From positions 1 through 64,000 of the forward strand of contig NZ_JADGEV010000015.1 in NCBI RefSeq assembly GCF_016744175.1: a stretch of DNA of 64,000 bases, given 5' to 3'. Below the pieces are notes generated by a model, which had not been told where the DNA came from, did not search any database, and was given only the letters and a program-made list of their open reading frames with translations. This document shows positions 10,888 to 27,132 of the stretch, piece after piece (within the stretch, counting starts at the first letter, position 1; each line of letters opens with the position of its first letter). The stretch comes from Neptunomonas sp. (lineage in GTDB: Bacteria; Pseudomonadota; Gammaproteobacteria; Pseudomonadales; Balneatricaceae). Position numbers and translations under genes: made by a program.

Positions 10888-11128
10888 TGCAAGTTAGCTC
10901 TATCACTAAAGGATATAGAGTAATCCTAGAGTTTGCGTCCCATTTTTTCGAAAGTGTACTAAGCTTTGGCTATTAGTAAGAGGTAATGTTTATAGCTAAA
11001 TAGAGCATGAATTTTAGTTTTGCTCAATGTATAGCGAATACCTTTAAAAAGTTTTGATGAATTGCAATATGCACTACTAATCGATAGTGCATTTGGTTCA
11101 GCGCCGAGTGGAAAATGGGCCCTCTGTC

Positions 11129-13186
11129 ATGAAAAAAGTGTACACCTATACGGCATGCTTAACATTTCTCTTTTCTCCAATAATACAAGCCAGTAGTGAA
11201 CCTGATAACTTTGAATTGAGTTTGCAGGAGCTACTTGATGTTGAAGTTACCTCTGTTTCAAAACAACCGCAGGCTTTATCTAAAGCTCCTGCTGCAATTT
11301 ATGTCATTACCAGTGATGATATTCAGCGCTCAGGAGCTACTTCCATTCCTCAAGCATTGCGTGATGTTCCCGGCCTGCACGTTGCTCAATTAGATTCACA
11401 AAAGTGGGCTATTGGTAGCCGAGGGTTTAATGGTCGATACAATAATAAACTACTGGTCATGATGGATGGCCGTACGCTTTATTCCCCCGAGTTCTCAGGC
11501 GTTTACTGGGAGGTTCAGGACACTCTAATGGCAGATATAGAGCGTATTGAGGTTATTCGTGGGCCAGGCGCAGCGATGTGGGGAGCTAATGCGGTTAATG
11601 GTGTGATAAATATCATCACTAAGCATAGCGCGGATACGCAGGGCGTATACTTAGAAGCAGGCGCTGGTGATTATGAACAAGGTTTTGCCAGTTTTCGTTT
11701 TGGTGGAAAGTTAGATGGAGGAGTAACTTTTCGTGGCTATGCAAAAGGGTTCGAGAGAGACTCTCTAACTTTTAATAACCAAGATATGTTGTTCCCACAG
11801 CGCTTATTAATGAATGGCGTTAGTTCAGATAATGACTGGGGAAATGTACAAGGAGGTGGGCGAGTTGATATACCCGTGGGAAGTGTTGCTTCATTAACTG
11901 TCAGTGCTGATTTTTATCGTAGTCAGTTACAACAAACACTATTTACTCCCACTATGAACCCTCCTTTTTATGGTGAGTTTTACAGCGATGAGTTTGATGC
12001 GAATGGTTGGAATCTTTTAGCAAAATATACAGAGGCAGTCTCAGCTACTTCTGAATACAGTATCCAAGCATATTATGATCATGCTCGACGTGATGAAAGT
12101 TTTTTGGGTTTTACCACTGACACCGTGGATGTAGATTTTCAATATCAGTTTAAGGCAGGTACTAACCATAATATTGTTTGGGGTCTTGGTTATCGTTATA
12201 TAAGTGATGATATTAATGCGGCGGCAATTATCTCTCCATCTAATGAAGATGCCTCTACCGAGCTCTGGAGTGCTTTTTTTCGTGATGAGATTACGCTACT
12301 TGAAGATACTCTCTGGTTAACGCTCGCTTCACGAATTGAGAACAACAGTTATACAGGAATTGAAGTCCAGCCGAATTTACGTTTGTTATATAAAGTTGAT
12401 GATGTAAGTACCTTATGGTCATCTGTTGCTTACTCAGTGAGAACACCATCAAGAGCAGAGAATAACTGGTCGATTAATGCTGTAAATATTCCTCCAAATG
12501 TAAGAGTTTCGTCGTTGATGCCTGCGGCACCTTTTTTAACGAAAGTCGTTGTGGCTGGTAATGATGATTATGAATCGGAAGAGTTAGTCACTTACGAAAT
12601 AGGATATAGATTCACACCCTCTAGCGTGTTTTCTCTTGATAGCTCAGTATTTTACAATGATTATAATGGCCTTCGTTCAGTAACTATCGGCCCCCCGGAT
12701 TTGAGCACCTTATCGAGTGGCTTTATTACGCAGCGGAACTTTTTTTCAAATAATGACTATGGACATAGTTATGGGATAGAAACCTCTGCACAATGGTTAG
12801 TGGCTAATAATTTTAAAATGAAGTTGAACTATAGTTTATTTGAGGGTGATTTTAGTGAGAGCATCACTCAAAATACTGACGCTCCAAAGCATATAGTATC
12901 CATAAATGCTGATTGGTCTCTTAATAAATATATTGATATGAATGCAACATGGCGTTATACCAGTGATGTACCGGCACTGTCTCCTTTTACCTTTACTAAT
13001 AAAACTATTCGCAGTCATCATGGAGTTGATATAGGGGTAAACTGGCTGCCCGTATCAGATGTTACTCTTTCGTTATATGGCAAGAACTTGTTAGGCGGTT
13101 CATACGTTGAGTATGAAGCTGAACAGTTTCATATACCATATCGGGTAGAGCCTTCGTTTTATGGCAAGTTATCTGTTTTATTTTGA
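11129..13186 (+). CDS. TonB-dependent receptor
   Basis: Signal peptide; plug domain (LSKAPAAIYVITSDDIQRSGATSIPQALRDVPGLHV...GPGAAMWGANAVNGVINIITK); beta-barrel ending in an aromatic C-terminus (YGKLSVLF). ATG 11129 (MKKVYTYT) preferred over the ORF-track start. Confidence 0.95.
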   Translation: MKKVYTYTACLTFLFSPIIQASSEPDNFELSLQELLDVEVTSVSKQPQALSKAPAAIYVITSDDIQRSGATSIPQALRDVPGLHVAQLDSQKWAIGSRGFNGRYNNKLLVMMDGRTLYSPEFSGVYWEVQDTLMADIERIEVIRGPGAAMWGANAVNGVINIITKHSADTQGVYLEAGAGDYEQGFASFRFGGKLDGGVTFRGYAKGFERDSLTFNNQDMLFPQRLLMNGVSSDNDWGNVQGGGRVDIPVGSVASLTVSADFYRSQLQQTLFTPTMNPPFYGEFYSDEFDANGWNLLAKYTEAVSATSEYSIQAYYDHARRDESFLGFTTDTVDVDFQYQFKAGTNHNIVWGLGYRYISDDINAAAIISPSNEDASTELWSAFFRDEITLLEDTLWLTLASRIENNSYTGIEVQPNLRLLYKVDDVSTLWSSVAYSVRTPSRAENNWSINAVNIPPNVRVSSLMPAAPFLTKVVVAGNDDYESEELVTYEIGYRFTPSSVFSLDSSVFYNDYNGLRSVTIGPPDLSTLSSGFITQRNFFSNNDYGHSYGIETSAQWLVANNFKMKLNYSLFEGDFSESITQNTDAPKHIVSINADWSLNKYIDMNATWRYTSDVPALSPFTFTNKTIRSHHGVDIGVNWLPVSDVTLSLYGKNLLGGSYVEYEAEQFHIPYRVEPSFYGKLSVLF

Positions 13187-13191
13187 TAGCG

Positions 13192-13737
13192 ATGACGTTG
13201 AACATGATGCGTAAGCTATTTATTAAATTGATCTTATTGTTAGGGGTATTATTTTTTATTCCTTTTAGTACTGCTGTGAACGCTCAGAGTGCTGATATCT
13301 ATCAGCTAAAAGCAGCATTGCTTTATAACTTCACCAAGTTTACGAAATGGCCAAACGGTAGTATCAAAAAGAGTATGGCTGTTTGCTATTTTAGTGAGCG
13401 TTATAAACCGGGAATGGAGAGACTTTCAGGTAAGAAGATTTCTCAATTAAAAATTTCAATAAAACAAATTAAAAATATCAACGATGTTGAACACTGCAAT
13501 CTTCTTTTTATTGATAAGTCGCAGCGAGAAATTTTAAATCGTTTATTTATAAAAGTTAAAGGTAAACCTATTCTAACTGTATCTGATATTTCAGGGTTTT
13601 ATGATGAAGGAGGCATGATAGAGATAACAGTTAGGGATAATAGGCTAAGATTTCTTATTGACTTAGAGGCAGTGGGTGGATCAGACATAGTTCTTAGTTC
13701 TCAAATGTTAAAGTTGGCTGTAGAGGTTAAACACTGA
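13192..13737 (+). CDS. YfiR family protein (DUF4154)
   Basis: Signal sequence; YQLKAALLYNFTKFTKWP...CYFSERYKPGMERLSGKKI...LLFIDKSQ...ILTVSDISGFYDEGGMIEITVRDNRLRFLIDLEAV...LSSQMLKLAVEV. Confidence 0.9.
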   Translation: MTLNMMRKLFIKLILLLGVLFFIPFSTAVNAQSADIYQLKAALLYNFTKFTKWPNGSIKKSMAVCYFSERYKPGMERLSGKKISQLKISIKQIKNINDVEHCNLLFIDKSQREILNRLFIKVKGKPILTVSDISGFYDEGGMIEITVRDNRLRFLIDLEAVGGSDIVLSSQMLKLAVEVKH

Positions 13738-16058
13738 TGGCCATGTTTAAATCCTTAAAAGTTAGGCTGTTGTTGTCAATGATTTTTCTTGTTGTATTGG
13801 TGACAATAATTATTTTATTAGCAGTCATTGATAGCCAAACTAGGGCGGCAAAGTCACAAGCTGAGAGTGAGTTGATATCTATTAGTGAAATGGTTGCTGA
13901 AAATATAGTAGCCGCTTTACTTTTTTCAGATCCTATATCAGCAAATAAGACCTTGAGCTCGCTAAAAGCGAAACCAGATATATATAACGCTATAATTTAC
14001 GATATGAATGGAAATGTTTTTTCAGAATATAAAAGGTATGAACTTAATCAAAAAATTATAGAGCATGAAATACTGACTATAATTGGCAATGAAAAAAAAT
14101 TGATCCGTAGTAATAAAAGTGGACTACGATCTTACATGCCAATATTTAGTGAAAATGAAGTGATTGGTTTAGTTTATATTGCTGATAATCTTATGACATT
14201 TAAACATAGAATTAATAATTTATATTATTGGGCTTTTATAATAAGTTCCTTGGCATTTGTTGTTAGTTTTATAATTATGTTTTTTTTGCAAAGAATTTTT
14301 ACTAAACCACTTGATGAGCTTATTTCTACTATAAAAAATATAGCTGATGAAAAAGATTATACGAAACTTGCACCGGAAAGCTCCACGACTGAGTTTGAAG
14401 TATTAGGCCGTAACTTTAACTATATGTTAGCTGAGATTTATAAAAGAGATAATCAATTAGAGTTGATTAATGCAGATTTAGAGGCCAGAGTTGAATCAAG
14501 AACTAAAGATTTGGCTGCAGCGTTAAGTTTAGCCAATGAAGGTAATCGTGCTAAATCTGAATTCTTAGCAGTCATGAGCCATGAAGTAAGAACCCCCCTC
14601 AATGGAATTATTGGGTTTTCAGAGCTGTTGAAATTACAGAGTTTTAATAAAGAAGTAACTGAAACGATTAAATACTTAAATATATCAGCACAATCATTAC
14701 TGTCTCTATTGAATGAGATTTTGGATTTTTCAAAGTTAGACGCACATAAAGTTGAAGTTGATAACAGTGAGTTTAGTTTGGCCTCTCTTGTTACTGCTGT
14801 TGTTGAGTCGTTAATACCTATAGCAAAAAAGAAAGACATTGAGATTAAACTAGAAATATCTGAGGAGTCTAAAGGTTTTTACTTAGGTGACTCTATGCGT
14901 ATTAGACAAGTGCTGAGTAATATAATTAATAATGCAGTGAAATTTACTGATTCTGGAAAAGTGATGGTTACAGTTTCTCAGTCTTATCGACATTCAGAAG
15001 CAGTACTTAGGTTTACGATAAAAGATACAGGTGTTGGAATAGCGCCTGAATTTTTAGAAGATATTTTCTCACCTTTCGTACAAGCAGATAGCACAATCAC
15101 ACGCCAGTATGGTGGAACCGGGCTTGGTCTTGCCATTTGTAAACAATTAATTGAGTTGATGAATGGACAGTATGGTGTCCAGAGTAAAGTAGGGAAAGGA
15201 AGTGAGTTTTGGTTTTCTATACCGCTGACAAAAGTAAATTTGGATTTGTCGTCTATTAATATTAACAAGATAGATAAGGTATCTTCTCACAAGAAAGGGA
15301 AAATACTCATTGCGGAAGATAATGAGATAAATCAGATGGTAATAAAGAATTTACTAATTACTTTTGGCCATTCGTGCCATGTGGTTTCTGATGGTATAGA
15401 GGCAATATCTGAGGCAACTATTAATAAATATGACTTGATTTTTATGGATTATCATATGCCTCTTGCTGATGGGGTTGAGGCAACAAAGAAAATACGTCAT
15501 TTAGATCAAGGGTCTGTTAACTATGCTACGCCTATTATCGCTTTAACGGCCGATATACAGCCAACCGTAAGGAAAATATTTCGTCATGCTGGGGCGAATG
15601 ATATTTTATTAAAACCCTTTACGCGTGAAAGTCTAGAGTTGTGTTTGAATAAATGGATGGGAGAAGAGTCATCTGCTTCTGCTGACCTTGTCGCTGATGA
15701 TACCTTTAAACTTGTTAACGCAAATGTTTTAGAGGAAATAGCAAATATTACGTCGGACAATACTATTGTAAAACAAATAGTAGAGTTATTTTTCGATAGA
15801 ACACCTGCTCTTTTAGAAACTATTAAAAAGGCTGTCCAGAATAATGACAATGAGTCCTTATTTTTGTCTGCTCACTCACTTAAATCAAGTTCTGCGAATA
15901 TTGGTGCTGAAAGTTTATCTGATATAGCTAGAAGGTTAGAGGGCATAGGACGTGAAGGTGTTATTGGTGAGGCTAGCAATTTGTTACCGTTATTATTTAG
16001 CTGTTTCGAGCAAACCACAGAAACTTTAAAGGGACTGTTAGAGGACTCGTCAATATGA
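13737..16058 (+). CDS. Hybrid sensor histidine kinase (CHASE8-like sensor, HAMP, HisKA, HATPase, REC, Hpt)
   Basis: H-box MSHEVRTPLNGIIGF; ATPase GTGLGLAICKQLIELMNGQYGVQSKVGKGSEFWF; REC with MDYHMP; Hpt SAHSLKSSSANIGA. Confidence 0.95.
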   Translation: MAMFKSLKVRLLLSMIFLVVLVTIIILLAVIDSQTRAAKSQAESELISISEMVAENIVAALLFSDPISANKTLSSLKAKPDIYNAIIYDMNGNVFSEYKRYELNQKIIEHEILTIIGNEKKLIRSNKSGLRSYMPIFSENEVIGLVYIADNLMTFKHRINNLYYWAFIISSLAFVVSFIIMFFLQRIFTKPLDELISTIKNIADEKDYTKLAPESSTTEFEVLGRNFNYMLAEIYKRDNQLELINADLEARVESRTKDLAAALSLANEGNRAKSEFLAVMSHEVRTPLNGIIGFSELLKLQSFNKEVTETIKYLNISAQSLLSLLNEILDFSKLDAHKVEVDNSEFSLASLVTAVVESLIPIAKKKDIEIKLEISEESKGFYLGDSMRIRQVLSNIINNAVKFTDSGKVMVTVSQSYRHSEAVLRFTIKDTGVGIAPEFLEDIFSPFVQADSTITRQYGGTGLGLAICKQLIELMNGQYGVQSKVGKGSEFWFSIPLTKVNLDLSSININKIDKVSSHKKGKILIAEDNEINQMVIKNLLITFGHSCHVVSDGIEAISEATINKYDLIFMDYHMPLADGVEATKKIRHLDQGSVNYATPIIALTADIQPTVRKIFRHAGANDILLKPFTRESLELCLNKWMGEESSASADLVADDTFKLVNANVLEEIANITSDNTIVKQIVELFFDRTPALLETIKKAVQNNDNESLFLSAHSLKSSSANIGAESLSDIARRLEGIGREGVIGEASNLLPLLFSCFEQTTETLKGLLEDSSI

Positions 16059-18151
16059 ATGATATAAATACGTTGTATACAGTACTTATTGTTGATGATG
16101 ATCCAGGTATCCGCATGCTAATGAAGCATGCATTGCAGGATAAGGAATTAACAGTATTTGAAGCGACGTGTGGTGATCAAGCTCTCCAAGTTTTTCAAAA
16201 AGTATCACCTGACATAGTGTTATTGGATGTTACTATGCCAGGTATGTCGGGGTTTGAGTGTTGTCAGTTGCTAAGAAGCTCAGATATGGGCGCGCAATGC
16301 GCGATAGTAATGGTCACTGCACTTGATAAGCCAGAAGACATCGAAACCGCTTTTGAGGTGGGCGCAACTGATTTTATGACGAAGCCTTTGAAGTGGCCTC
16401 TTTTTAAACATCGCGTACGCTATATTCTTAAAGCAAATAAAACACTCTTAGAGTTGAGTCGTAACCAATCAAAGCTGTCTAAAGCGCAATCTATTGCGCG
16501 TTTAGGGTACTGGGAATGGGATTATAAGTCCGGTTTTATTGAGTGCTCTGCAGAGTTACTTTCTATGCTAGGTATTAAAAATATAAACACCTCAGTAAAG
16601 TACCGTTCTGTTTTAAAGTGTATTCATCCTGAAGATCGGCGCTTATTCAATAGTGCTTTTCGTCAGGCATTGCGTGAAAATAAATCGTATGATATCGAGT
16701 ACCGTGTGAGGCGGGCCGATGATGAAATAATTATTTTCCACGACCGCACCGATATAATTGAAGAGTACGGTTACAAACGCATTATTGGTACCTTGCATGA
16801 TATAACTTCGCAAAAGAATACAGAGAAAGAAATATCATATTATGCGTATTACGACACTCTGACAAAGCTGCCGAATAGGCGCTTATTTTTAGATCAGTTT
16901 GAGGCATCTTTATCAATGGCGAGACGCCGAGATGAGAAGGTCTCACTTTTGTTTATCGATCTAGATCATTTCAAAAATATTAACGATAGCTATGGTCATC
17001 ATGTAGGTGACCAGGTATTGACACAAACAGCGAGCCGAATCAAAAACTCGGTTCGCATGTCAGATGTTATTTCAGTTGGAATTGATGACTCACAAAATAA
17101 AGTGGCACGCTTAGCCGGTGATGAATTTACCGTTTTACTATGTGAAGTGAATGCTGTTGATAATGTCGTAACGATTGCCCAGAGGGTGCTCGACTCCTTA
17201 TCTCAACCTTTTATCCTTGATAGCCATACTGTTTATATTACAGCGACAGTCGGTATTGCTTTGTATCCTGATGATAGTGATAACGTCCAAGAGCTGCTGC
17301 AAAATGCTGATGTGGCTATGTATCACGCCAAAGAAAGTGGTAGAAATAATTACCAGTTTTTTTCAGAAGAGTTGAATGTCTACCACAAAAACAGGCTTTC
17401 AATTGAAAACGATCTACGATCTGCTTTGTTTAATAATGAATTAGTTATTTATTATCAACCTCAGTTTAACGGTGAAGATAAAGAAATCATCGGTTTTGAG
17501 GCGTTGCTTCGATGGAATCATCCAACCAAAGGGTTGTTATCTCCCGATAAGTTTATGAGCATCGCTGAATCCTCTGGGCTCATAGTGCCCATTGGTGCTT
17601 GGGTGTTAGAGGAAGCATGCAAGCAAGCACATGAATGGTCACAAAAAAGCACTAAATCTTATCGTATGGCTGTTAATTTGTCGGCTCTTCAATTTAGTCA
17701 TAAAAACCTTTCTGAGCAGGTTCTCAGTGCTCTGGAAGTGTCCGGGCTAGATCCTTCTTTACTTGAGTTAGAGATTACTGAATCGGCCATTATTCAAAAT
17801 GTTAATGAAACTCTGAAGTTGCTCGTATCACTAAAAAGTTTAGGTATCAATTTAGCTATTGATGACTTTGGCACAGGTTACTCTTCTTTAAGCTACTTAA
17901 AAAAATTCCCTATAGACACACTAAAAGTGGATAAGTCATTCGTTGATGAGATAGTTACCAATAAAAAAGACGCCGCCATCGCCCAGACCATTCTTCAGTT
18001 AGCAAACAACCTTGGGTTATTGAGTGTTGCTGAGGGAGTTGAGACCAAAGAGCAGGTTGAAGGTTTAACTAACATGGGGTGTACTCAGTTCCAAGGCTTC
18101 TTTTTCAGTAAGCCATTACCGGTTGAGTTGATTGATTTGTTGATCAAATAA
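16055..18151 (+). CDS. Response regulator with REC, PAS, GGDEF and EAL domains
   Basis: REC VLIVDDDPGIRML...VLLDVTMPGMSG; GGDEF-domain motif LAGDEF; EAL motif IGFEALLRWNHPTKG with DDFGTGYSSLSYL. ATGA overlap with the upstream kinase gene. Confidence 0.96.
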   Translation: MNDINTLYTVLIVDDDPGIRMLMKHALQDKELTVFEATCGDQALQVFQKVSPDIVLLDVTMPGMSGFECCQLLRSSDMGAQCAIVMVTALDKPEDIETAFEVGATDFMTKPLKWPLFKHRVRYILKANKTLLELSRNQSKLSKAQSIARLGYWEWDYKSGFIECSAELLSMLGIKNINTSVKYRSVLKCIHPEDRRLFNSAFRQALRENKSYDIEYRVRRADDEIIIFHDRTDIIEEYGYKRIIGTLHDITSQKNTEKEISYYAYYDTLTKLPNRRLFLDQFEASLSMARRRDEKVSLLFIDLDHFKNINDSYGHHVGDQVLTQTASRIKNSVRMSDVISVGIDDSQNKVARLAGDEFTVLLCEVNAVDNVVTIAQRVLDSLSQPFILDSHTVYITATVGIALYPDDSDNVQELLQNADVAMYHAKESGRNNYQFFSEELNVYHKNRLSIENDLRSALFNNELVIYYQPQFNGEDKEIIGFEALLRWNHPTKGLLSPDKFMSIAESSGLIVPIGAWVLEEACKQAHEWSQKSTKSYRMAVNLSALQFSHKNLSEQVLSALEVSGLDPSLLELEITESAIIQNVNETLKLLVSLKSLGINLAIDDFGTGYSSLSYLKKFPIDTLKVDKSFVDEIVTNKKDAAIAQTILQLANNLGLLSVAEGVETKEQVEGLTNMGCTQFQGFFFSKPLPVELIDLLIK

Positions 18152-18268
18152 TAGACGTATTTTATTTCGCGTTAATCTCCGCTACATCTTTCTGGCATAT
18201 AGTATTTAACAACTACTGAATTTGGTGCTGCATAGGCGCACCTTTTCATTTACTAACAAGGAGCCATC

Positions 18269-19453
18269 ATGTCAAATTCGACCTTTAAGTATCTTGATAA
18301 AGCACTCTCTCAGGTGCGGGATTTAGGCTTGATGCCTGAAAAAGTAGATGAAGCCCCAGTTGTGGCGCTTATCGAGCGTTTGTCTGATATTGATGAGACT
18401 AAAGCCTTAGCCATTGCACGAACATTAACTCAGGCTTCAGTTTTTAATGAAATTGTGCGCGAACAAGTTTCTCAGATGAAAATTGGTCAGCGTTACGCTG
18501 AGATCACTGAATCATTTAATAGTATTCGCGATGACGCCAAAAAGATGGTTGAGCAAGTCGAAGATGGCAAGGTGGATACATTTGAGCGTGCTAGTAACGT
18601 ATGGATGAAAGTTACCCGTGGAGATATCGCTAGTCGTTTCGATAAGATAAAAGATACTTACCTAGAAGTGGCGCGCGATTCTAAAGATCAGATTGAGCGT
18701 GAACATGTCATTCTAAATGCCTATCAAGATTTTCGTGGTGCCATTAAAGAATCCGAAATCTATGCATTGGATTTATTAAAGCAAACAGAGGCATTGTGGA
18801 ATACCGAGAAAGAAGCGCTTAAACAAGCAGGCGAGAAGGTAGAGCGGTTTGTCGGTGATGATCTTGCAGATCGAGCTAAGCTCGAGCTAGCGCGTGATGA
18901 AAGCATGCGTAGTTTACAGTTTGCTGAAGACCGGTACCAGGTTGCCAAAGATCTTTCAGATAATCTGACCGTCAGCTACAACACCTCTGAAGTTATTATG
19001 ATGCGTTTGATGCAAACCAACAGTGCTAAAGACCGTGTATATAAGCAATCGATTACTTTCTTTGGCACGAATGAATCCGTGTTTACAGCCTTAACTGCAT
19101 CCTACACAGGTATGTTTGGTTTGCATGAAAGTACTGAAACTCTTAATGCAATGAAAGATGGTGTTTCTAAAAGTTTAGAAGATCTAGCGTCTATCGGTGG
19201 AAAGGTACAAGAGGCGGCTATTAAAGCAGGCTATGGCCCAACTATACGCGCCGAGTCTGTGAAAAAGCTGGTTGACTCTGTTGTTAACTTTCAAGAGCGT
19301 TCGCAAGAAATCATAGAAGAGATGCGAGTGCTATCAACTAAAAATGCTGAAGAAATTCGTGATTCTGTCGAAGAAGGAAAACAGCGCTTAGCCCGAGTTA
19401 TTCAGCGAGGTGGTTCCTTGCCATTGCCTGATTTCTCTCAAGGGAGCAAATAG
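18269..19453 (+). CDS. Uncharacterised coiled-coil protein, first gene of a three-gene operon
   Basis: Long ORF with RBS AAGGAGCCATC; charged, helical sequence with no TM segment or catalytic motif recognised. Confidence 0.88.
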   Translation: MSNSTFKYLDKALSQVRDLGLMPEKVDEAPVVALIERLSDIDETKALAIARTLTQASVFNEIVREQVSQMKIGQRYAEITESFNSIRDDAKKMVEQVEDGKVDTFERASNVWMKVTRGDIASRFDKIKDTYLEVARDSKDQIEREHVILNAYQDFRGAIKESEIYALDLLKQTEALWNTEKEALKQAGEKVERFVGDDLADRAKLELARDESMRSLQFAEDRYQVAKDLSDNLTVSYNTSEVIMMRLMQTNSAKDRVYKQSITFFGTNESVFTALTASYTGMFGLHESTETLNAMKDGVSKSLEDLASIGGKVQEAAIKAGYGPTIRAESVKKLVDSVVNFQERSQEIIEEMRVLSTKNAEEIRDSVEEGKQRLARVIQRGGSLPLPDFSQGSK

Positions 19454-19507
19454 CTAGGTTGTTGTTAATTCTTATTTAAGATGTGTTCAAAAGTGGCGAG
19501 TAAATGA

Positions 19508-20449
19508 ATGGATAGTATTAATGCGGCAAGTACTTCTGCTGACCAAGTGGAAGTGCCCAGAGCAAAACTTGAAGATATTATGGTGGCGATGGATGTAGTG
19601 GACACGCTGCGTCACCGTCAAGGCATGGTTGAAAGAGAGCTTGATACTAATGCTCGGCGTGAACAACTGTTGGAGCGTTTGCGTGAAATCTATGCGGAGC
19701 AGGGGATGGATGTCCCTGATCATATATTGGAAGAGGGGATTAGAGCTCTTGATGAAGACCGTTTTAAATACTATCCGGCGAAGAAAAGTTTCTCTACCAA
19801 ACTAGCTCATCTTTATGTAAGCCGTAAAACCTGGGGTAAACCTCTTGCCGCGCTCTTGTTGGTTGGCGTTGTTCTATATGGAGGAAATTATTTCATTAAT
19901 GAAAGGCCGCAACAGTTGGCGCTTCAAGCGCTACCTAGCGACTTGAAGCAAACTTACAGTGAAATACAGACCGTTGCTAAGAACCCTTCTGTAGTAGTGC
20001 AAGCAGAAGAGTTGAAAGGCTCGGCTATCGCTGCTTTAAACAACAATAAACCTAAAGTTGCTGAGTCTTTACTTAGAGATATGGAAAACATACTCATTCA
20101 ATTGAGAGCGAGTTATAAAATTAGAATAGTATCTCGTGCAGGAGAACAGTCAGGTGTGTGGCGTATTCCTGATGTTAACTCTAATGCCAGAAACTACTAT
20201 TTAATTGTTGAAGCAATAGGCCGAGCAGATACTGTTTTAACCTTACCGGTAGTGAGCGAAGAATCAGGTAAGCGCAATGACGTCGACAAATGGGGGATAC
20301 GAGTGGATTATAGAACCTTCAACTCAGTGGCGGCGGATAAGCGTGATGACGGTATTATTCAGTTAAACATTGTGGGTGAGAAACCGGCAGGATATTTAAA
20401 ACCAAAATATAAAATTGCCACCAGTGGTGCCACTATTACGCAATGGTAA
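19508..20449 (+). CDS. Uncharacterised single-TM protein (DUF6384-like by recollection)
   Basis: N-terminal helical region (MDVVDTLRHRQGMVERELDTNARREQLLERLREIYAEQG) then one TM (PLAALLLVGVVLYGGNYFI) and a soluble C-terminal domain. Confidence 0.85.
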   Translation: MDSINAASTSADQVEVPRAKLEDIMVAMDVVDTLRHRQGMVERELDTNARREQLLERLREIYAEQGMDVPDHILEEGIRALDEDRFKYYPAKKSFSTKLAHLYVSRKTWGKPLAALLLVGVVLYGGNYFINERPQQLALQALPSDLKQTYSEIQTVAKNPSVVVQAEELKGSAIAALNNNKPKVAESLLRDMENILIQLRASYKIRIVSRAGEQSGVWRIPDVNSNARNYYLIVEAIGRADTVLTLPVVSEESGKRNDVDKWGIRVDYRTFNSVAADKRDDGIIQLNIVGEKPAGYLKPKYKIATSGATITQW

Positions 20450-20505
20450 AAATGGCTTTACGTTTTTACATATTTTTATCAGCACATATTTATAGAAGGG
20501 TTTAG

Positions 20506-21978
20506 ATGATGTGGAGTGGTTCAACAGCCTTAAATAGTATCGATAGCACTTTAAGGTCGGTGCGTGATGATATTGACCGTCTGGATCAGAATTTAACGCA
20601 CCTGACTGAGAGCTTGACTGAGAACCTCCGCCAACAAGGTAATGTGATTCATGAGATTGCCAAGGTGCGCTTATTAGAGATTGATACAGGGCAACTTCAA
20701 GACACGCTTACGGCTGCTGACTTGAATGCAAAAAATATATTGAGCGATCGCATTCAGCATGTTCAGCAGGTTGAGCACGACATAAAAGATCTCAAGCAGC
20801 AGTTGGAGAAGGCTGAAATAGCACGTGAGAAATTATTGTCAGTTGCTAATGCGGTATCAGCCGACCTAGCAGAAAATGAAACGTCTATCCAAAATACCTT
20901 ACGAACTGACACCGCCTATCTGGCGCAATTTGAACGTGCTAGTAAAGCTGAATCAATAGCAGCTGAGGCGCTGCAAAAAAGTGAGACAGCTCAATCTGAT
21001 ATGGATATCAAAGATGAACCGTATCAAAATGATAAGTTGTTTATGTACTTATGGGGGCGAAAGTACACAACCCCCGATTACGAAGGCGGGTTGTTGACAC
21101 GCGCTCTCGATAAATGGGTTGCAGACCTAATACAGTATGAACGAAATCGCGTAAATTATTGGAATCTTCAAGAGATACCAAAGCGCTTAGCTGCTCATGC
21201 TGAAAGAGTAAAAACGGAAGCTGACGGCGAGTTTTTAGAATTACAGGCATTAGAACAGAAGGCTCTGTCTGATGGCGGTGTGCCGGCCGTTGAACAGCGC
21301 TTGGAAGAGGCTCGCGTAAGACTCGATGAGCAGGACGACCAAATTGAAGCCTTAGAAAATGAGTTGAGTTTTGCTTTGGAAAAACGAGCTGGGTTTGCTT
21401 CTGGGTCGGATGAATATACACAACGTAGTATTCAATGTTTAAGTGATGCTATGGCGCATAAAGATGTTTATCAAATTGACCGTTATGTGAAGGCGACTTT
21501 ATCTCCTGTCGATGATGAGCTGGTAAGAGAGCTTCATCAGTTTCAGGACAATTATGAAGATAACGAAGACGACCTAACCGATTTAAGACGAGCACACTCG
21601 GCGAAAATAGCAAAGCTAAAAGAGCTTGAAAGTGTGCGGCATAACTTCAAGAATAATCGCTTTGATGATGTACGTTCGGGTTTTGGTAATGAAGCGCTTA
21701 TTAAGTCTGTACTAGGCCAGTTTTTACAAGGGGTCGTCGCGGGCAGCGATGTTTGGCGTGTTCTTAAACGTAACCAGCGCTATGATAATCGCGGCGCCCA
21801 GCCCGATTTTGGGAGCGATGGTATCAGTGGTAGATCTTCAAGTAGGCAAACTTCAAATCGGAACAGTACATTTAGATGGCCAAGTTCGCGAGGTGGAAGC
21901 GGAGGCTTTCGCATACCGGGCAGTGGGCGTAGTAAACGCAGTGGTGGCGGCGGGTTCAGCACAGGCGGTGGTTTCTAA
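20506..21978 (+). CDS. Uncharacterised coiled-coil protein with Gly/Ser/Arg-rich C-terminal tail
   Basis: Extended heptad-like helical regions; C-terminus RGGSGGFRIPGSGRSKRSGGGGFSTGGGF. Same strand and closely spaced after the two preceding genes. Confidence 0.88.
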   Translation: MMWSGSTALNSIDSTLRSVRDDIDRLDQNLTHLTESLTENLRQQGNVIHEIAKVRLLEIDTGQLQDTLTAADLNAKNILSDRIQHVQQVEHDIKDLKQQLEKAEIAREKLLSVANAVSADLAENETSIQNTLRTDTAYLAQFERASKAESIAAEALQKSETAQSDMDIKDEPYQNDKLFMYLWGRKYTTPDYEGGLLTRALDKWVADLIQYERNRVNYWNLQEIPKRLAAHAERVKTEADGEFLELQALEQKALSDGGVPAVEQRLEEARVRLDEQDDQIEALENELSFALEKRAGFASGSDEYTQRSIQCLSDAMAHKDVYQIDRYVKATLSPVDDELVRELHQFQDNYEDNEDDLTDLRRAHSAKIAKLKELESVRHNFKNNRFDDVRSGFGNEALIKSVLGQFLQGVVAGSDVWRVLKRNQRYDNRGAQPDFGSDGISGRSSSRQTSNRNSTFRWPSSRGGSGGFRIPGSGRSKRSGGGGFSTGGGF

Positions 21979-22075: not shown

Positions 22076-23131
22076 TCAGTTTTGAGCTGTTTTAGTTTGT
22101 GCGCTTTCAGGCACATAGCTTCTCGCAATGTTACGTAGCTCTTTTAATGCAGCGGCTGCATCCACATCGCGCTTGGAAACACGCTCAAGGTAGTCTTCAT
22201 CCATACCAATAATCATGGCTTGAAACTCCTTATCGATGAGGTCACCTTTTTTAACTTCCAAAATTGAAACCCCTGCTTTTTTGGCAGCAATAAGTCCTTC
22301 GGCATCACCGCCATCCCATGCTTGCCCTGCAAGGGCTGATAGTTTCTCGCCAGAAACGGAAAGAACTGCCGCTTTGTCTTCTTTGCTAAGGCTGTCTAAG
22401 AAGTCTGGATTCATAAAGATAGAAAAGCTCATGACGTACATGCCACCGGGTAATAAAACGAGTTGCTTGGTGACTTCGTTCAAGCGCAAAGTCTTTTGTT
22501 CACCTACAGGGATGAATACACCATCAACTACACGCTGCTGCATCATTTCGTACACTTTAGGTGCCGGTGCCCCAACGGCGGTTACGCCCATGCGCTCACC
22601 AAGTTGTGTTTGGATTCCACCGCCTAGACGAATCTTACGATGTTTCATATCAGCAAGGGAGTTGATTGGTTCTGCTAAATGTATTTGTCCAGGGCCATGT
22701 GTGAAAAGGGCGGCTACAACAAGCCCATCGTGTTCGTTTGCCTGCTTATAATATTTGTTACTAACTCGCCAAAATGCGACAGAGGCCGCTTCGGCATTTG
22801 CGTTTAGATTTGGTAGTTCTACAGACTCTGTCAATTTAAAGCGTCCGGGTATATAACCATGAACGCTCCAACTAGCATCAACAACATTATCTTCCACGAG
22901 GTCGAACATGGTTTTAGGGTGACCCATACCGTATTCAATCTTCATTTTTACCCGGCCTTGAGTGGCCTCTTCTATCCACTTCCCCCACGTTGTTAGAACA
23001 ATGGCATTCTGAGGGTGTGTTGGCGGAAGCCAGCTAGCAACTCGCATAACAGAATCAGCAAGTACACTGCCTGATAGTAGAAGACCTAATGATAGACCTG
23101 CAGATGATTTAATGAATGTTTTTATTATCAT
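22076..23131 (-). CDS. TRAP transporter substrate-binding protein, DctP type
   Basis: Signal peptide then MRVASWLPPTHPQNAIVLTTWGKWIEEATQGRVKMKIEYG...INSLADMKHRKIRLGGGIQTQLGERMGVTAVGAPAPKVYEMMQQRVVDGVFIP. Confidence 0.88.
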   Translation of the reverse strand: MIIKTFIKSSAGLSLGLLLSGSVLADSVMRVASWLPPTHPQNAIVLTTWGKWIEEATQGRVKMKIEYGMGHPKTMFDLVEDNVVDASWSVHGYIPGRFKLTESVELPNLNANAEAASVAFWRVSNKYYKQANEHDGLVVAALFTHGPGQIHLAEPINSLADMKHRKIRLGGGIQTQLGERMGVTAVGAPAPKVYEMMQQRVVDGVFIPVGEQKTLRLNEVTKQLVLLPGGMYVMSFSIFMNPDFLDSLSKEDKAAVLSVSGEKLSALAGQAWDGGDAEGLIAAKKAGVSILEVKKGDLIDKEFQAMIIGMDEDYLERVSKRDVDAAAALKELRNIARSYVPESAQTKTAQN

Positions 23132-23180
23132 ATGAATTACCTTCTTATTGTATGCCTTCAATAAAGGCTTGTTTTCAACG

Positions 23181-24443
23181 CTATGAATGGTGAGTTTTAG
23201 GGTGTGAAAGTGAACTATTTTTTTTAGTGTTCTTCATGGCTGTATCAATGATCTGAATCCAGTGCTGTATAGGGATCTTGGTTTTATTCGAAAGATGTGT
23301 AATGCAGCCAATATTGGCACTGCCGATGATGTCAGGATTTGCTTTATCAAGTGCTTCAATTTTCTCTATACCTAGCTGAGTAGCGAGTTTTGGCTGAAAA
23401 ATAGAGTAGGTGCCTGCAGACCCACAGCAAATGTGTCCATCACTGACGGGTTTTATTGGAAAGCCTAATCTGGTTAATACAGCTTCAACTGAGCCTGATA
23501 AGCCTTGAGCATGCTGTAGAGAGCAGGGGCATTGAAAAGCAACGCTGGGAGTAGCCTTTAGAGTGAGTTTTTCTAATGGAAGATCAGTTAACACCTCAAC
23601 CAAATCTTTTGTTAGTGCAGATACGTGCGCTGCTTTATTAGCATATAAAGGATCATTTTTAAGTAGTTTTCCATACTCTTTTACTGTCGATCCACAACCA
23701 CTGGCAGTCATTACTATTGCTTCACAGCCGTTCTCTATTATTGGCCACCATGCGTCTATATTGTTGCGCATAAAGTCCCGCCCGTCTTCCTGCTTATTCA
23801 GGTGGTAACTTATCGCACCACAACAGCCTGCTTTATCTGCAATTATTAGGGAGATATCGAATTGGTTTAAGACCCTTGCTGTTGCTGCATTAATATCTGG
23901 TGCGAGTCCGGGTTGAACGCAGCCTTCTAGTACTAGCATTCGTTTTTTATGCACTCGTATCGGCCAATTGATTTTTAATGGCCGCAAAGGAATTTTGGCT
24001 TTTAGTACTTTTGGTAGGAGTGGTCGAATATATTGCGCGGCTCTCAGTAGGGGAGTAAAACGATCTGGATAAGGAAGAACGCTGAGTATTGAATGGCGTA
24101 GCGCTTTTTGTGCAAAGGAACGAGGTACTTGCTTTTCTACAACTTGCACGCCGATATCAAGCAGGCTGTGGTAATCAACATTGGCGGGACAGGTTGTTTC
24201 ACAAGCGCGACAGTTGAGGCAAGCATCAAGATGTGATTGTGTGATTGCGGAGGCTGGCTGTCCCTCTAAAACCTGTTTAATTAAATAGATGCGCCCCCGA
24301 GGGCTGTCTAATTCATTTCCTCGTAAATTGTAGGTCGGGCACGTTGCTAGACAGAAACCGCAATGTACGCATTTACGCAGGATAGTATCGGCCTCTTTTC
24401 CTTGCGCGGTGCTATTAATGAATTCAGCTATGTTGGTCTGCAC
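23181..24443 (-). CDS. glcF: Glycolate oxidase iron-sulfur subunit
   Basis: Two CxxCxxCxxxCP motifs (CVHCGFCLATCP, CLNCRACETTCP) and CCG-type motifs (CCGAISYHL, CCGSAGTYSI). GTG start at 24443 behind GGGGGAGATACC preferred. Confidence 0.93.
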   Translation of the reverse strand: MQTNIAEFINSTAQGKEADTILRKCVHCGFCLATCPTYNLRGNELDSPRGRIYLIKQVLEGQPASAITQSHLDACLNCRACETTCPANVDYHSLLDIGVQVVEKQVPRSFAQKALRHSILSVLPYPDRFTPLLRAAQYIRPLLPKVLKAKIPLRPLKINWPIRVHKKRMLVLEGCVQPGLAPDINAATARVLNQFDISLIIADKAGCCGAISYHLNKQEDGRDFMRNNIDAWWPIIENGCEAIVMTASGCGSTVKEYGKLLKNDPLYANKAAHVSALTKDLVEVLTDLPLEKLTLKATPSVAFQCPCSLQHAQGLSGSVEAVLTRLGFPIKPVSDGHICCGSAGTYSIFQPKLATQLGIEKIEALDKANPDIIGSANIGCITHLSNKTKIPIQHWIQIIDTAMKNTKKNSSLSHPKTHHS

Positions 24444-24468
24444 GGTATCTCCCCCAGCGTTGGATTGG

Positions 24469-25632
24469 TTATAGGTCTTTGTATAAACGACCGGGATTGA
24501 GAATGTTGTGTGGGTCAAAGCTGTTCTTTATGCGTTTGCTTAATGTAAGAAGTGCAGGGCTTAGAGGGCTGAAAGTAGAACCATTAGCATCACTACTATT
24601 CGCCTTGCTGTTACTAGCGCCGCATCTATTACGAAAGCCGCTAGCATGACCGCCATTATCACTAGCCCATTGTTGTAGCGCATCAGTATCTTTGGGGTAC
24701 ACCCAACGTTGTGCTCCTCCCCATTCGGTGATCGACTCTGTATCAACTAGTAAGTCAGGAATGCACGGGGCGCTAGGAGGTAGTGACACACGCCATAAAG
24801 TTCTATCTTGATTAAAGTAAGGGAGGCGCTGCTCTTTCAGTTGGTGCCAAAAAAGCTCTGCTTGTCTGAGAACGTCGCCACCTATGTTTTCTGCCGCAGA
24901 TACTACCCCTGCTTTAGCGCCGGAAAAGCGTACATATAAAAGATTGTTATGAAGGTATGTAGCAGAAATTGGTATTGGCTGGCGGCCCAATGTGCTTAAT
25001 AAAGTACACATCTGCTGGTGGTTATAGGGAAGAATGCGTGTTTCTTCAAAAGCTGGTTTAGGGATGACTTTGAGCGATATTTCTAGCAACACGCCTAATG
25101 TACCCAATGCACCAGTCATCAGGCGTGAAACATCATAGCCTGCAACGTTTTTCATGACTTGGCCGCCAAACTTTAAAATTTCGCCTTTACCGTTGATGAT
25201 GGTCGCGCCTAAAACAAAGTCTCTGACAGCGCCTGTATAAGGACGACGTGGGCCAGAAATTCCGCACGCAATGGTGCCGCCAAGAGTAGCATTATCAGAA
25301 AATTCAGGCGGCTCAAACCCAAGCATTTGCCCATGCTCTGCCAGTAATTGCTCTATCTCTCGTAAAGGCGTGCCTGTGCGTGCAGTAATGACGAGTTCGG
25401 ATGGCTCGTAATTGATAATCCCGCTGTATCCTGAAACGGTCAATTCGACACCTGATATACTGCGTCCATAAAACGCTTTACTTCCACAACCAATAATTTT
25501 TAAAGGTGATTGTTGTTCATAGGCGTTTTTTACCTGCTCAGCAATAACCTCTGCAGTTACTGTTGGTGTTTGCTCAGAAAGAACAGGCGCCTGCTGCTTA
25601 TCAGTTTGAGATAGTACTAATACTTCAGTCAT
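24469..25632 (-). CDS. glcE: Glycolate oxidase FAD-binding subunit
   Basis: FAD-binding PCMH pattern (LGGTIACGISGPRRPYTGAVRDFVLGATIINGKGEILKFGGQVMKNVAGYDVSRLMTGALGTLGVLLEISLKVIPKP); ends NPGRLYKDL; lies between glcD and glcF. Confidence 0.95.
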   Translation of the reverse strand: MTEVLVLSQTDKQQAPVLSEQTPTVTAEVIAEQVKNAYEQQSPLKIIGCGSKAFYGRSISGVELTVSGYSGIINYEPSELVITARTGTPLREIEQLLAEHGQMLGFEPPEFSDNATLGGTIACGISGPRRPYTGAVRDFVLGATIINGKGEILKFGGQVMKNVAGYDVSRLMTGALGTLGVLLEISLKVIPKPAFEETRILPYNHQQMCTLLSTLGRQPIPISATYLHNNLLYVRFSGAKAGVVSAAENIGGDVLRQAELFWHQLKEQRLPYFNQDRTLWRVSLPPSAPCIPDLLVDTESITEWGGAQRWVYPKDTDALQQWASDNGGHASGFRNRCGASNSKANSSDANGSTFSPLSPALLTLSKRIKNSFDPHNILNPGRLYKDL

Positions 25633-27132
25633 TTAGAACCGCTCCAGATGAGGAAACGGCATTTCGCCATTATGTATATGCATCGCATGGAACTCAGTGC
25701 AACGAGCTAAGGTCGGGATCTGCTTGCCAGGATTAAGTAACGATTTATCGTCAAAAGCGTTTTTTAGTGCATGAAATTGGCTTATTTCTGCACCAGTAAA
25801 CTGTAGACACATCTCATTTATTTTTTCTAAACCGATGCCGTGTTCTCCGGAAATAGTCCCGCCGACATGAACACATAACTCAAGAATGCGTGTGCCAAGA
25901 TCGTTGGCGCGTTTATGTTGATCCTCATCGGAGGAATCAAACAATATCGACGGGTGCATGTTGCCATCACCAGCGTGGAAAACATTCACTACAAGAAGCT
26001 GATACTCATCAGCGAGTTGATTGATTCTTGTCCACACCTGGGCTAGTGCCCGGCGTGGAATAGTACCGTCCATCACATAGTTGTCTGGAGCTAAGCAAGC
26101 GAGTGCAGGGAAAGCGGCTTTTCGAGCAGCCCAGATGCGTTTGCTTTCAGCTTCGTTGGTTGATATTTGAATATCTGAAGCATTTAAGCGGTTAAGAATT
26201 GTTATAACACTGGTGAGTTCATCTTCAACTTCTTCAACGCTGCCATCTAATTCACAGATAATTACTGCCGCTGCATCAACCGGATAGCCAGCATGCATTA
26301 GTGCTTCAATTGCTTGAATGCCTTTTTGATCAATCATTTCAAGGCCAGCTGGAATGATGCCTGCACCTATAATTTCAGCAATGGTATTGCCTGCATCCTC
26401 AATGGTTGCGAAGGCTGCGAGTAACACGCGAGCGCTGGCAGGTTTCGCTAAAAGCTTTACGCGGATGCCAACAATAATCCCTAGCAAACCTTCTGAACCC
26501 GTCATTACTGCCATGAGGTCATACCCTGCGGCATCCAGCGCTTGGCCGCCTATGGTGATGCGCTCACCCTCAATGGTGATAACGTCCAGTTCCAAAATAT
26601 TGTGGACGGTGAGACCGTACTTGAGGCAATGAACGCCGCCAGCATTTTCAGCAACATTTCCGCCCACTGAGCATGCGAGCTGTGAGGATGGGTCGGGTGC
26701 GAAATACAGGTTGTAAGGTGCGGCGGCATCAGAAACGGCTTGGTTGCGAACGCCAGGGTCTATCCATGCAGTGCGATTATGCAGATTAATATCATGTATT
26801 TTATTGAACTTGCTCATGCCAAGCAGAACACCGTTCTCGACAGGCATAGATCCTGCGGTTAGCCCTGTGCCTGCTCCACGAGCCACGACAGGAATATCAA
26901 GGGCATGGCAGCAACGCATAATATGCTGAACTTGTTCGATGGTATCAGGGAGTACTGTCAGTAACGGTATTTGGCGCATCGTAGTGAATGCATCGCACTC
27001 GTAAGCTTTTAGCTGTTCTGGTTCACTCAAGATTGCATCCTCAGGAATCAACATGCTCAGCATTGGAATGAGGCTGGCAAGTCGTTTTGTTCTGATGCTT
27101 GCTGCAATGTTTGAGTTCATGGTGGTATCCAA
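25633..27132 (-). CDS. glcD: Glycolate oxidase FAD-linked subunit
   Basis: PVVARGAGTGLTAGSMPVENGVLLGMSKFNKI, SSQLACSVGGNVAENAGGVHCLKYG, VFHAGDGNMHPSILFD, GTISGEHGIGLEK. Confidence 0.95.
   Translation of the reverse strand: MDTTMNSNIAASIRTKRLASLIPMLSMLIPEDAILSEPEQLKAYECDAFTTMRQIPLLTVLPDTIEQVQHIMRCCHALDIPVVARGAGTGLTAGSMPVENGVLLGMSKFNKIHDINLHNRTAWIDPGVRNQAVSDAAAPYNLYFAPDPSSQLACSVGGNVAENAGGVHCLKYGLTVHNILELDVITIEGERITIGGQALDAAGYDLMAVMTGSEGLLGIIVGIRVKLLAKPASARVLLAAFATIEDAGNTIAEIIGAGIIPAGLEMIDQKGIQAIEALMHAGYPVDAAAVIICELDGSVEEVEDELTSVITILNRLNASDIQISTNEAESKRIWAARKAAFPALACLAPDNYVMDGTIPRRALAQVWTRINQLADEYQLLVVNVFHAGDGNMHPSILFDSSDEDQHKRANDLGTRILELCVHVGGTISGEHGIGLEKINEMCLQFTGAEISQFHALKNAFDDKSLLNPGKQIPTLARCTEFHAMHIHNGEMPFPHLERF

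Follow-up and report, generated by a model that had tools for sequence, protein, structure and literature searches.

What do three adjacent genes at 18269–21978 of the analysed window encode, do they belong to one system, and has this system been described? The window is a 64,000-nt stretch, contig C94 (NZ_JADGEV010000015.1) of the 4.2-Mb genome of Neptunomonas sp. The genes are designated A, B and C below, and together the trio.

Gene organization and coding status

Genes A (18269–19453, 394 aa), B (19508–20449, 313 aa) and C (20506–21978, 490 aa) are ORFs of the plus strand with ATG starts, separated by gaps of 54 nt (A/B) and 56 nt (B/C). An earlier note, made from the sequence alone, had described three ORFs on the same strand, and its coordinates, lengths, gaps and C-terminal tail of the third protein were all reproduced. 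The nearest relatives of all three are Neptunomonas genes, and identity across the species of this genus is 86–97% for A, 73–86% for B and 67–85% for C. In comparisons with unsaturated dS only, dN/dS was 0.010–0.046 for the three genes, and these values are rough, since dS was at least 1.7. A, B and C are genuine genes under strong purifying selection.

Searches of Pfam, NCBIfam, PADLOC and PHROGs assigned a family, DUF6384, to B only; no matches above the cut-off were found for A or C. The earlier remark that no catalytic motif is recognisable thus held in the libraries tested; B, however, is known to databases as a full-length member of a Pfam family. The trio is undescribed: the family of B is known, A and C have no family, and no known system was matched. 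Its newness consists in this lack of a match to known systems and does not imply a new mechanism.

Distribution and inheritance of the trio

A profile search of 274 gammaproteobacterial genomes detected A in 14 genomes, and B and C in the same 14; one extra weak genome match to C (E 3e-4) is probably coiled-coil noise. The conserved co-occurrence of the three genes, which the earlier note had named as a check, is therefore present and unusually strict. Outside these genomes, among 24 loci on GTDB contigs, located through B, genes A-B-C follow in this order on one strand in 22, in one of which A is clipped by the contig edge; the other two are a locus ended by the contig after B and a lone partial B in Thiocapsa.

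Loci of the trio were found in Gammaproteobacteria, Alphaproteobacteria (Chthonobacter), Thermodesulfobacteriota and Planctomycetota, and the locus is also present in a MAG of Trueperaceae, where the contig stops after B. In PLSDB, all 11 plasmids with A carry contiguous A-B-C; these plasmids, of 323 kb to 1.39 Mb, belong to Pseudomonas (7), Bradyrhizobium, Methylorubrum, Microvirga and Rhizobium. The distribution is patchy, with the trio present in about 5% of the genomes of the class and DUF6384 in 5 of 8 sampled Neptunomonas genomes. Intergenic gaps among trio loci are often –8 to +15 nt, and such short or overlapping junctions suggest translational coupling.

In the tree of A, three Planctomycetota sequences join gammaproteobacteria of the Neptunomonas type, apart from those of the Chromatiales type, with moderate support (89/93). 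This grouping fits transfer between phyla and suggests that the trio was likely transferred in this way. The pairwise divergences of the three genes are correlated (r = 0.90–0.93), which would be expected of a unit inherited whole, and shared inheritance alone predicts such a correlation. A-B-C is an obligate unit, inherited as a set.

Thiocapsa roseopersicina has a second, lone C-terminal region of DUF6384 (L024:10001–10531), the complete trio being located on another contig.

Protein B, a member of DUF6384

The product of gene B (19508..20449, plus strand) comprises an N-terminal helical domain, one transmembrane segment and a C-terminal helical and beta domain. It matches PF19911 with E 8e-116 and 386.9 bits (cut-off 25) over residues 17–313 and profile positions 4–308 of 308, and is a full-length member of DUF6384. 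This family covers B alone and has no assigned function, while the partners A and C belong to no family; no mention of DUF6384 was found in the literature searched.

The transmembrane segment at residues 112–130 (19841..19897, plus strand; hydropathy maximum 1.77) is the only one in the trio, as had been noted before, no TM-like hydrophobic segment being present in A or C by hydropathy. The 15 residues preceding it contain 3–6 K/R and 0–1 D/E in nearly all full-length homologues. Because of this K/R-rich flank, the positive-inside rule predicts an N-in/C-out topology, constant among homologues, with a cytoplasmic N-terminal helical domain and a periplasmic helical and beta part after the transmembrane segment.

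The beta-rich C-terminal domain (residues 203–313; 20114..20446, plus strand) is the best-conserved part of B in plasmid and phage homologues. Its block pLDDT is mostly 80–93, and the structure model of whole B has a pLDDT of 79.5. For this domain no match was found in the PDB either by sequence profile or by fold (Foldseek), and a Foldseek search of B in BFVD returned one strong match, G4KKD0, a protein of 440 aa, which is the length of g191 of phage phiR1-37. B ends with ITQW, and the pattern [ILV]TxW is located at or very near the C-terminus in most homologues, including those of both phages considered below. Longer versions of B, of about 420–500 aa, are encoded on Pseudomonas plasmids and in three genomes.

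Protein A, the most conserved member

Protein A (18269..19453, plus strand), a soluble helical protein, is the most conserved member of the trio, with 59–70% identity between phyla; its conservation is that of a core protein, in a system that is accessory. Its AlphaFold model (pLDDT 71) consists of a helical hairpin of residues 106–192 and 199–280, with helices of about 80 residues each, and a helix of residues 328–383. Residues 271–330 (19079..19258, plus strand) are highly conserved (block conservation 0.77–0.87), yet have a pLDDT of only 34–54 when modelled alone. This segment may therefore need a partner, and is likely a candidate interface with a partner or with A itself.

Sequence-profile searches of the PDB retrieved designed helical proteins and coiled-coil noise only. 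Foldseek matches of A to chemoreceptors and alpha-pore-forming toxins (E at least 5e-3; TM-scores, by query length, of at most about 0.4) were rejected as generic matches of long helices.

Protein C and its terminal signature

Protein C (20506..21978, plus strand) is a coiled-coil protein. Its central conserved block is LFMYLWxRxYGTPxY, and its residues from about 431 to 490 (21796..21975, plus strand) form a low-complexity tail rich in G, S, R and F. The tail ends with GGGGFSTGGGF-COOH (21943..21975, plus strand), a signature identified by a stop-anchored pattern among trio genomes, and GGGFxTGGxF or a near variant terminates the chromosomal and most alphaproteobacterial homologues. All trio genomes but one (13 of 14) carry the stop-anchored DNA pattern for GFxTGGxF at the terminus of C; the only other match in the 274 genomes has an in-frame TGA and does not encode such a tail.

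In Pseudomonas plasmids and in phiR1-37 the homologous tails of C are rich in S, of the FSTSDSF/FSSSDSF type, and often repeated. Exceptions aside, the tails follow one plan, aromatic-x-[TS]-[GS]-[GD]-x-[hydrophobic]-COOH. Conservation at the very C-terminus is typical of peptides that a partner recognises, and the terminal motifs of C, and also of B, may be docking peptides of this kind.

Copies in jumbo phages

In the Yersinia jumbo phage phiR1-37 (262 kb), A-B-C correspond to g190-g191-g192, all three of which are matched by the trio profiles; g190 is 42% identical to A (tblastn). The profile alignments themselves include g190-g192, so the independent evidence consists of BLAST matches of A and of the C-terminal part of B, together with the position and tail of C. 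In the phage record some genes are marked ‘phage structural protein’ and g190-g192 lack this mark, which suggests, without proving it, that they are not virion proteins. In PMC10299810, phiR1-37 serves as an example of a phage with multisubunit RNA polymerases and without chimallin, so in this phage the trio does not belong to a phage nucleus built on chimallin. Genes g190-192 are absent from the main text of the RNA-seq paper on this phage (PMC4848604), and IMG/VR scans for the trio returned phiR1-37 only.

The Dolichospermum phage Dfl-JY45 (209 kb) carries B-C; the profile E-values, 1e-53 and 2e-43, come from a search space of a handful of proteins. A was not found in its genome, and is therefore not always required.

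Downstream of B-C in this segment of Dfl-JY45 (L059:6053–13359), the product of the next gene, of 1233 aa, has long coiled coils and a P-loop-like motif and appears by eye to be SMC/MukB-like.

Upstream element and recurrent neighbours

Upstream of A, a putative promoter/operator is located at 18171..18203 on the plus strand, comprising GTTAATCT-N2-GCTACATCTTT followed by a TATAGT box resembling a –10 element. The motif is kept upstream of A among Neptunomonas species and is weaker in locus L029. It has a single full match in the host genome, with two further matches of three mismatches each, and was rejected as a regulon marker, as a second full match is lacking there. No consistent match to the sigma-54, EcfG, sigma-32 or sigma-E consensus was found upstream of A in 33 loci.

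Among 126 flanking proteins of 18 loci, the recurrent family is LptF/LptG, with four proteins, which by our reading form two pairs, one in each of the related loci L006 and L011. Other recurrent families are few pairs, mostly housekeeping, including aldehyde dehydrogenase and pyruvate kinase. Flanking genes are not common to the A-B-C loci.

A proposed membrane-anchored assembly

Proteins confined to joint occurrence in hundreds of genomes of several phyla are almost always parts of one machine. As the three genes are strictly inherited as a set in distant bacteria, giant plasmids and a giant phage, we infer that their products are almost certainly parts of one piece of cell machinery, and give a nearly even chance to the reading that A-B-C form one coiled-coil complex anchored in the inner membrane.

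In such a complex B would be the anchor, with its short cytoplasmic helical domain, one transmembrane segment and a periplasmic helical and beta domain ending with ITxW. The long helical hairpin of A would be the conserved cytoplasmic core, the segment 271–330, which has no predicted fold alone, being its contact with itself or with a partner, and C would be a coiled coil in the cytoplasm; the last residues of its flexible G/S/F-rich tail would serve for docking and be recognised by A, B or C itself. At the membrane the three proteins would build a scaffold or filament, useful but non-essential to the cell, and the genes would move as a cassette between bacteria, megaplasmids and jumbo phages.

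The co-occurrence, contiguity, short gaps, correlated divergence and constant predicted topology of B favour a complex, as do the end motifs of C and B, the segment of A unfoldable alone and the lack of a match to any enzyme family or fold. The same reading is weakened by the lack of A in Dfl-JY45, by the generic Foldseek matches of A (best E 5e-3) and because no neighbour, promoter class or paper indicates a role. The earlier suggestion of an uncharacterised three-gene unit is supported, the unit being conserved and comprising a bitopic membrane protein with two soluble helical or coiled-coil partners. A function in the envelope or in cell organization would be a guess, and the stress role put forward in the earlier note is speculative.

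More tentatively, the trio may represent a new class of membrane-anchored scaffold or filament, built of three obligate proteins with docking by tail peptides and spread among several phyla, megaplasmids and jumbo phages. The trio is a compact target, whose study would name a new complex and give DUF6384 a function.

Comparison with known systems and alternative explanations

The trio could be a diverged envelope-stress module, working like Psp or TelA-XpaC with A as a remote TelA-like or PspA-like protein, which we regard as unlikely. PspA/IM30 (Vipp1) systems are alike in style only, combining helical proteins with a small membrane partner; the gene set is different, and PF04012 was not matched by A or C at E<=1, so that membership by profile was rejected and a relationship to PspA/IM30, whose style the earlier note had invoked, is not supported. 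TelA/KlaA (PF05816) is similar in size and architecture, being a helical protein of about 400 aa, but its partner is XpaC, instead of DUF6384 here. PF05816 was likewise not listed for A at E<=1, and hhalign of A against 29 TelA sequences was not significant (E 0.26, probability 0.2%), as was an earlier run with 5 sequences; A was accordingly not assigned to TelA. The best register in this comparison pairs residues 304–376 of A (GYGPTIRAESVKK) with TelA 313–381 (RGVFDIEAVKK); this weak alignment near the C-terminus is almost collinear, both proteins having about 395 aa, and is a lead only. None of PspA, flotillin and TelA, which the earlier note had proposed to look for, is among the recurrent neighbour families.

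A further point in favour of an envelope-stress module is StiP (PF11202, E 8e-74), encoded by the fourth gene upstream of A on the Pseudomonas megaplasmids pMPPla107 and pBASL58, which likens the trio to Ter-dependent stress modules. In genomes no such association was found: of the 14 genomes with the trio, 1 has StiP above the cut-off, vs. 7 of 260 others; StiP is therefore not clearly enriched with the trio, and the link to a Ter-dependent system was rejected by this distribution. The adjacency on the plasmids likely reflects a shared plasmid backbone. Neither homology to a characterised complex nor a lack of conserved co-occurrence, the two outcomes that would have spoken against the earlier note, was observed.

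The segments L141:1644–13116 of pMPPla107 and L142:1609–11813 of pBASL58 have the common order hypothetical-StiP-PTH2-trio-hypothetical-dcd at an identity of only 33–75%, and are an old conserved plasmid backbone; the paper on pMPPla107 (PMC8544880) contains nothing on the trio genes. The host genome also encodes a StiP cysteine protease on another contig (G000:C86:34730–35467, L147; E 7e-95), and may thus contain a Ter-like stress module.

The patchy spread of the trio, its likely transfer between phyla and its copies on megaplasmids and jumbo phages would also suit a mobile conflict module of bacteria, plasmids and phages, acting in anti-phage defence, superinfection exclusion or counter-defence. 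This is rather improbable: PADLOC gave coiled-coil noise only (E at least 0.0055), nuclease, NTPase and toxin domains were not found in Pfam, NCBIfam or PADLOC, and the identity of A between phyla is too high for an arms race. A location in defence islands was rejected as well, the recurrent chromosomal neighbours being housekeeping families such as LptF/LptG, aldehyde dehydrogenase and pyruvate kinase.

Every extrachromosomal copy found is located on a very large replicon, whether plasmid or phage, as would be expected of a replicon-maintenance helper, a membrane-tethered coiled-coil system organizing or segregating large replicons. Such a role is quite doubtful, since a DNA-binding domain and an ATPase were not found, most large replicons lack the trio, and large replicons are richer in accessory genes of all kinds.

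That the trio consists of surface or secreted proteins, as annotations of some plasmid homologues of A (‘cell surface protein’, ‘merozoite surface protein 3b’) would have it, is hardly credible, given that A and C lack TM-like segments and a signal peptide recognisable by eye, and that no experimental basis for these names was found.

In place of these alternatives, the membrane-anchored assembly is the reading we prefer, and the jumbo phage phiR1-37 has its own copy of the trio.

Genes adjoining the trio in the window

Directly upstream of the trio, a group of four plus-strand genes (11087–18151; translation judged by eye) encodes a TonB-receptor-like protein, a 184-aa YfiR/DUF4154-like protein, a hybrid histidine kinase and a response regulator with GGDEF-EAL-like domains. 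It is probably a c-di-GMP signalling operon. Downstream, the minus-strand group at 22076–27132 contains, by eye, the gene for a TRAP-type substrate-binding protein, followed by GlcF-, GlcE- and GlcD-like genes of glycolate oxidase.
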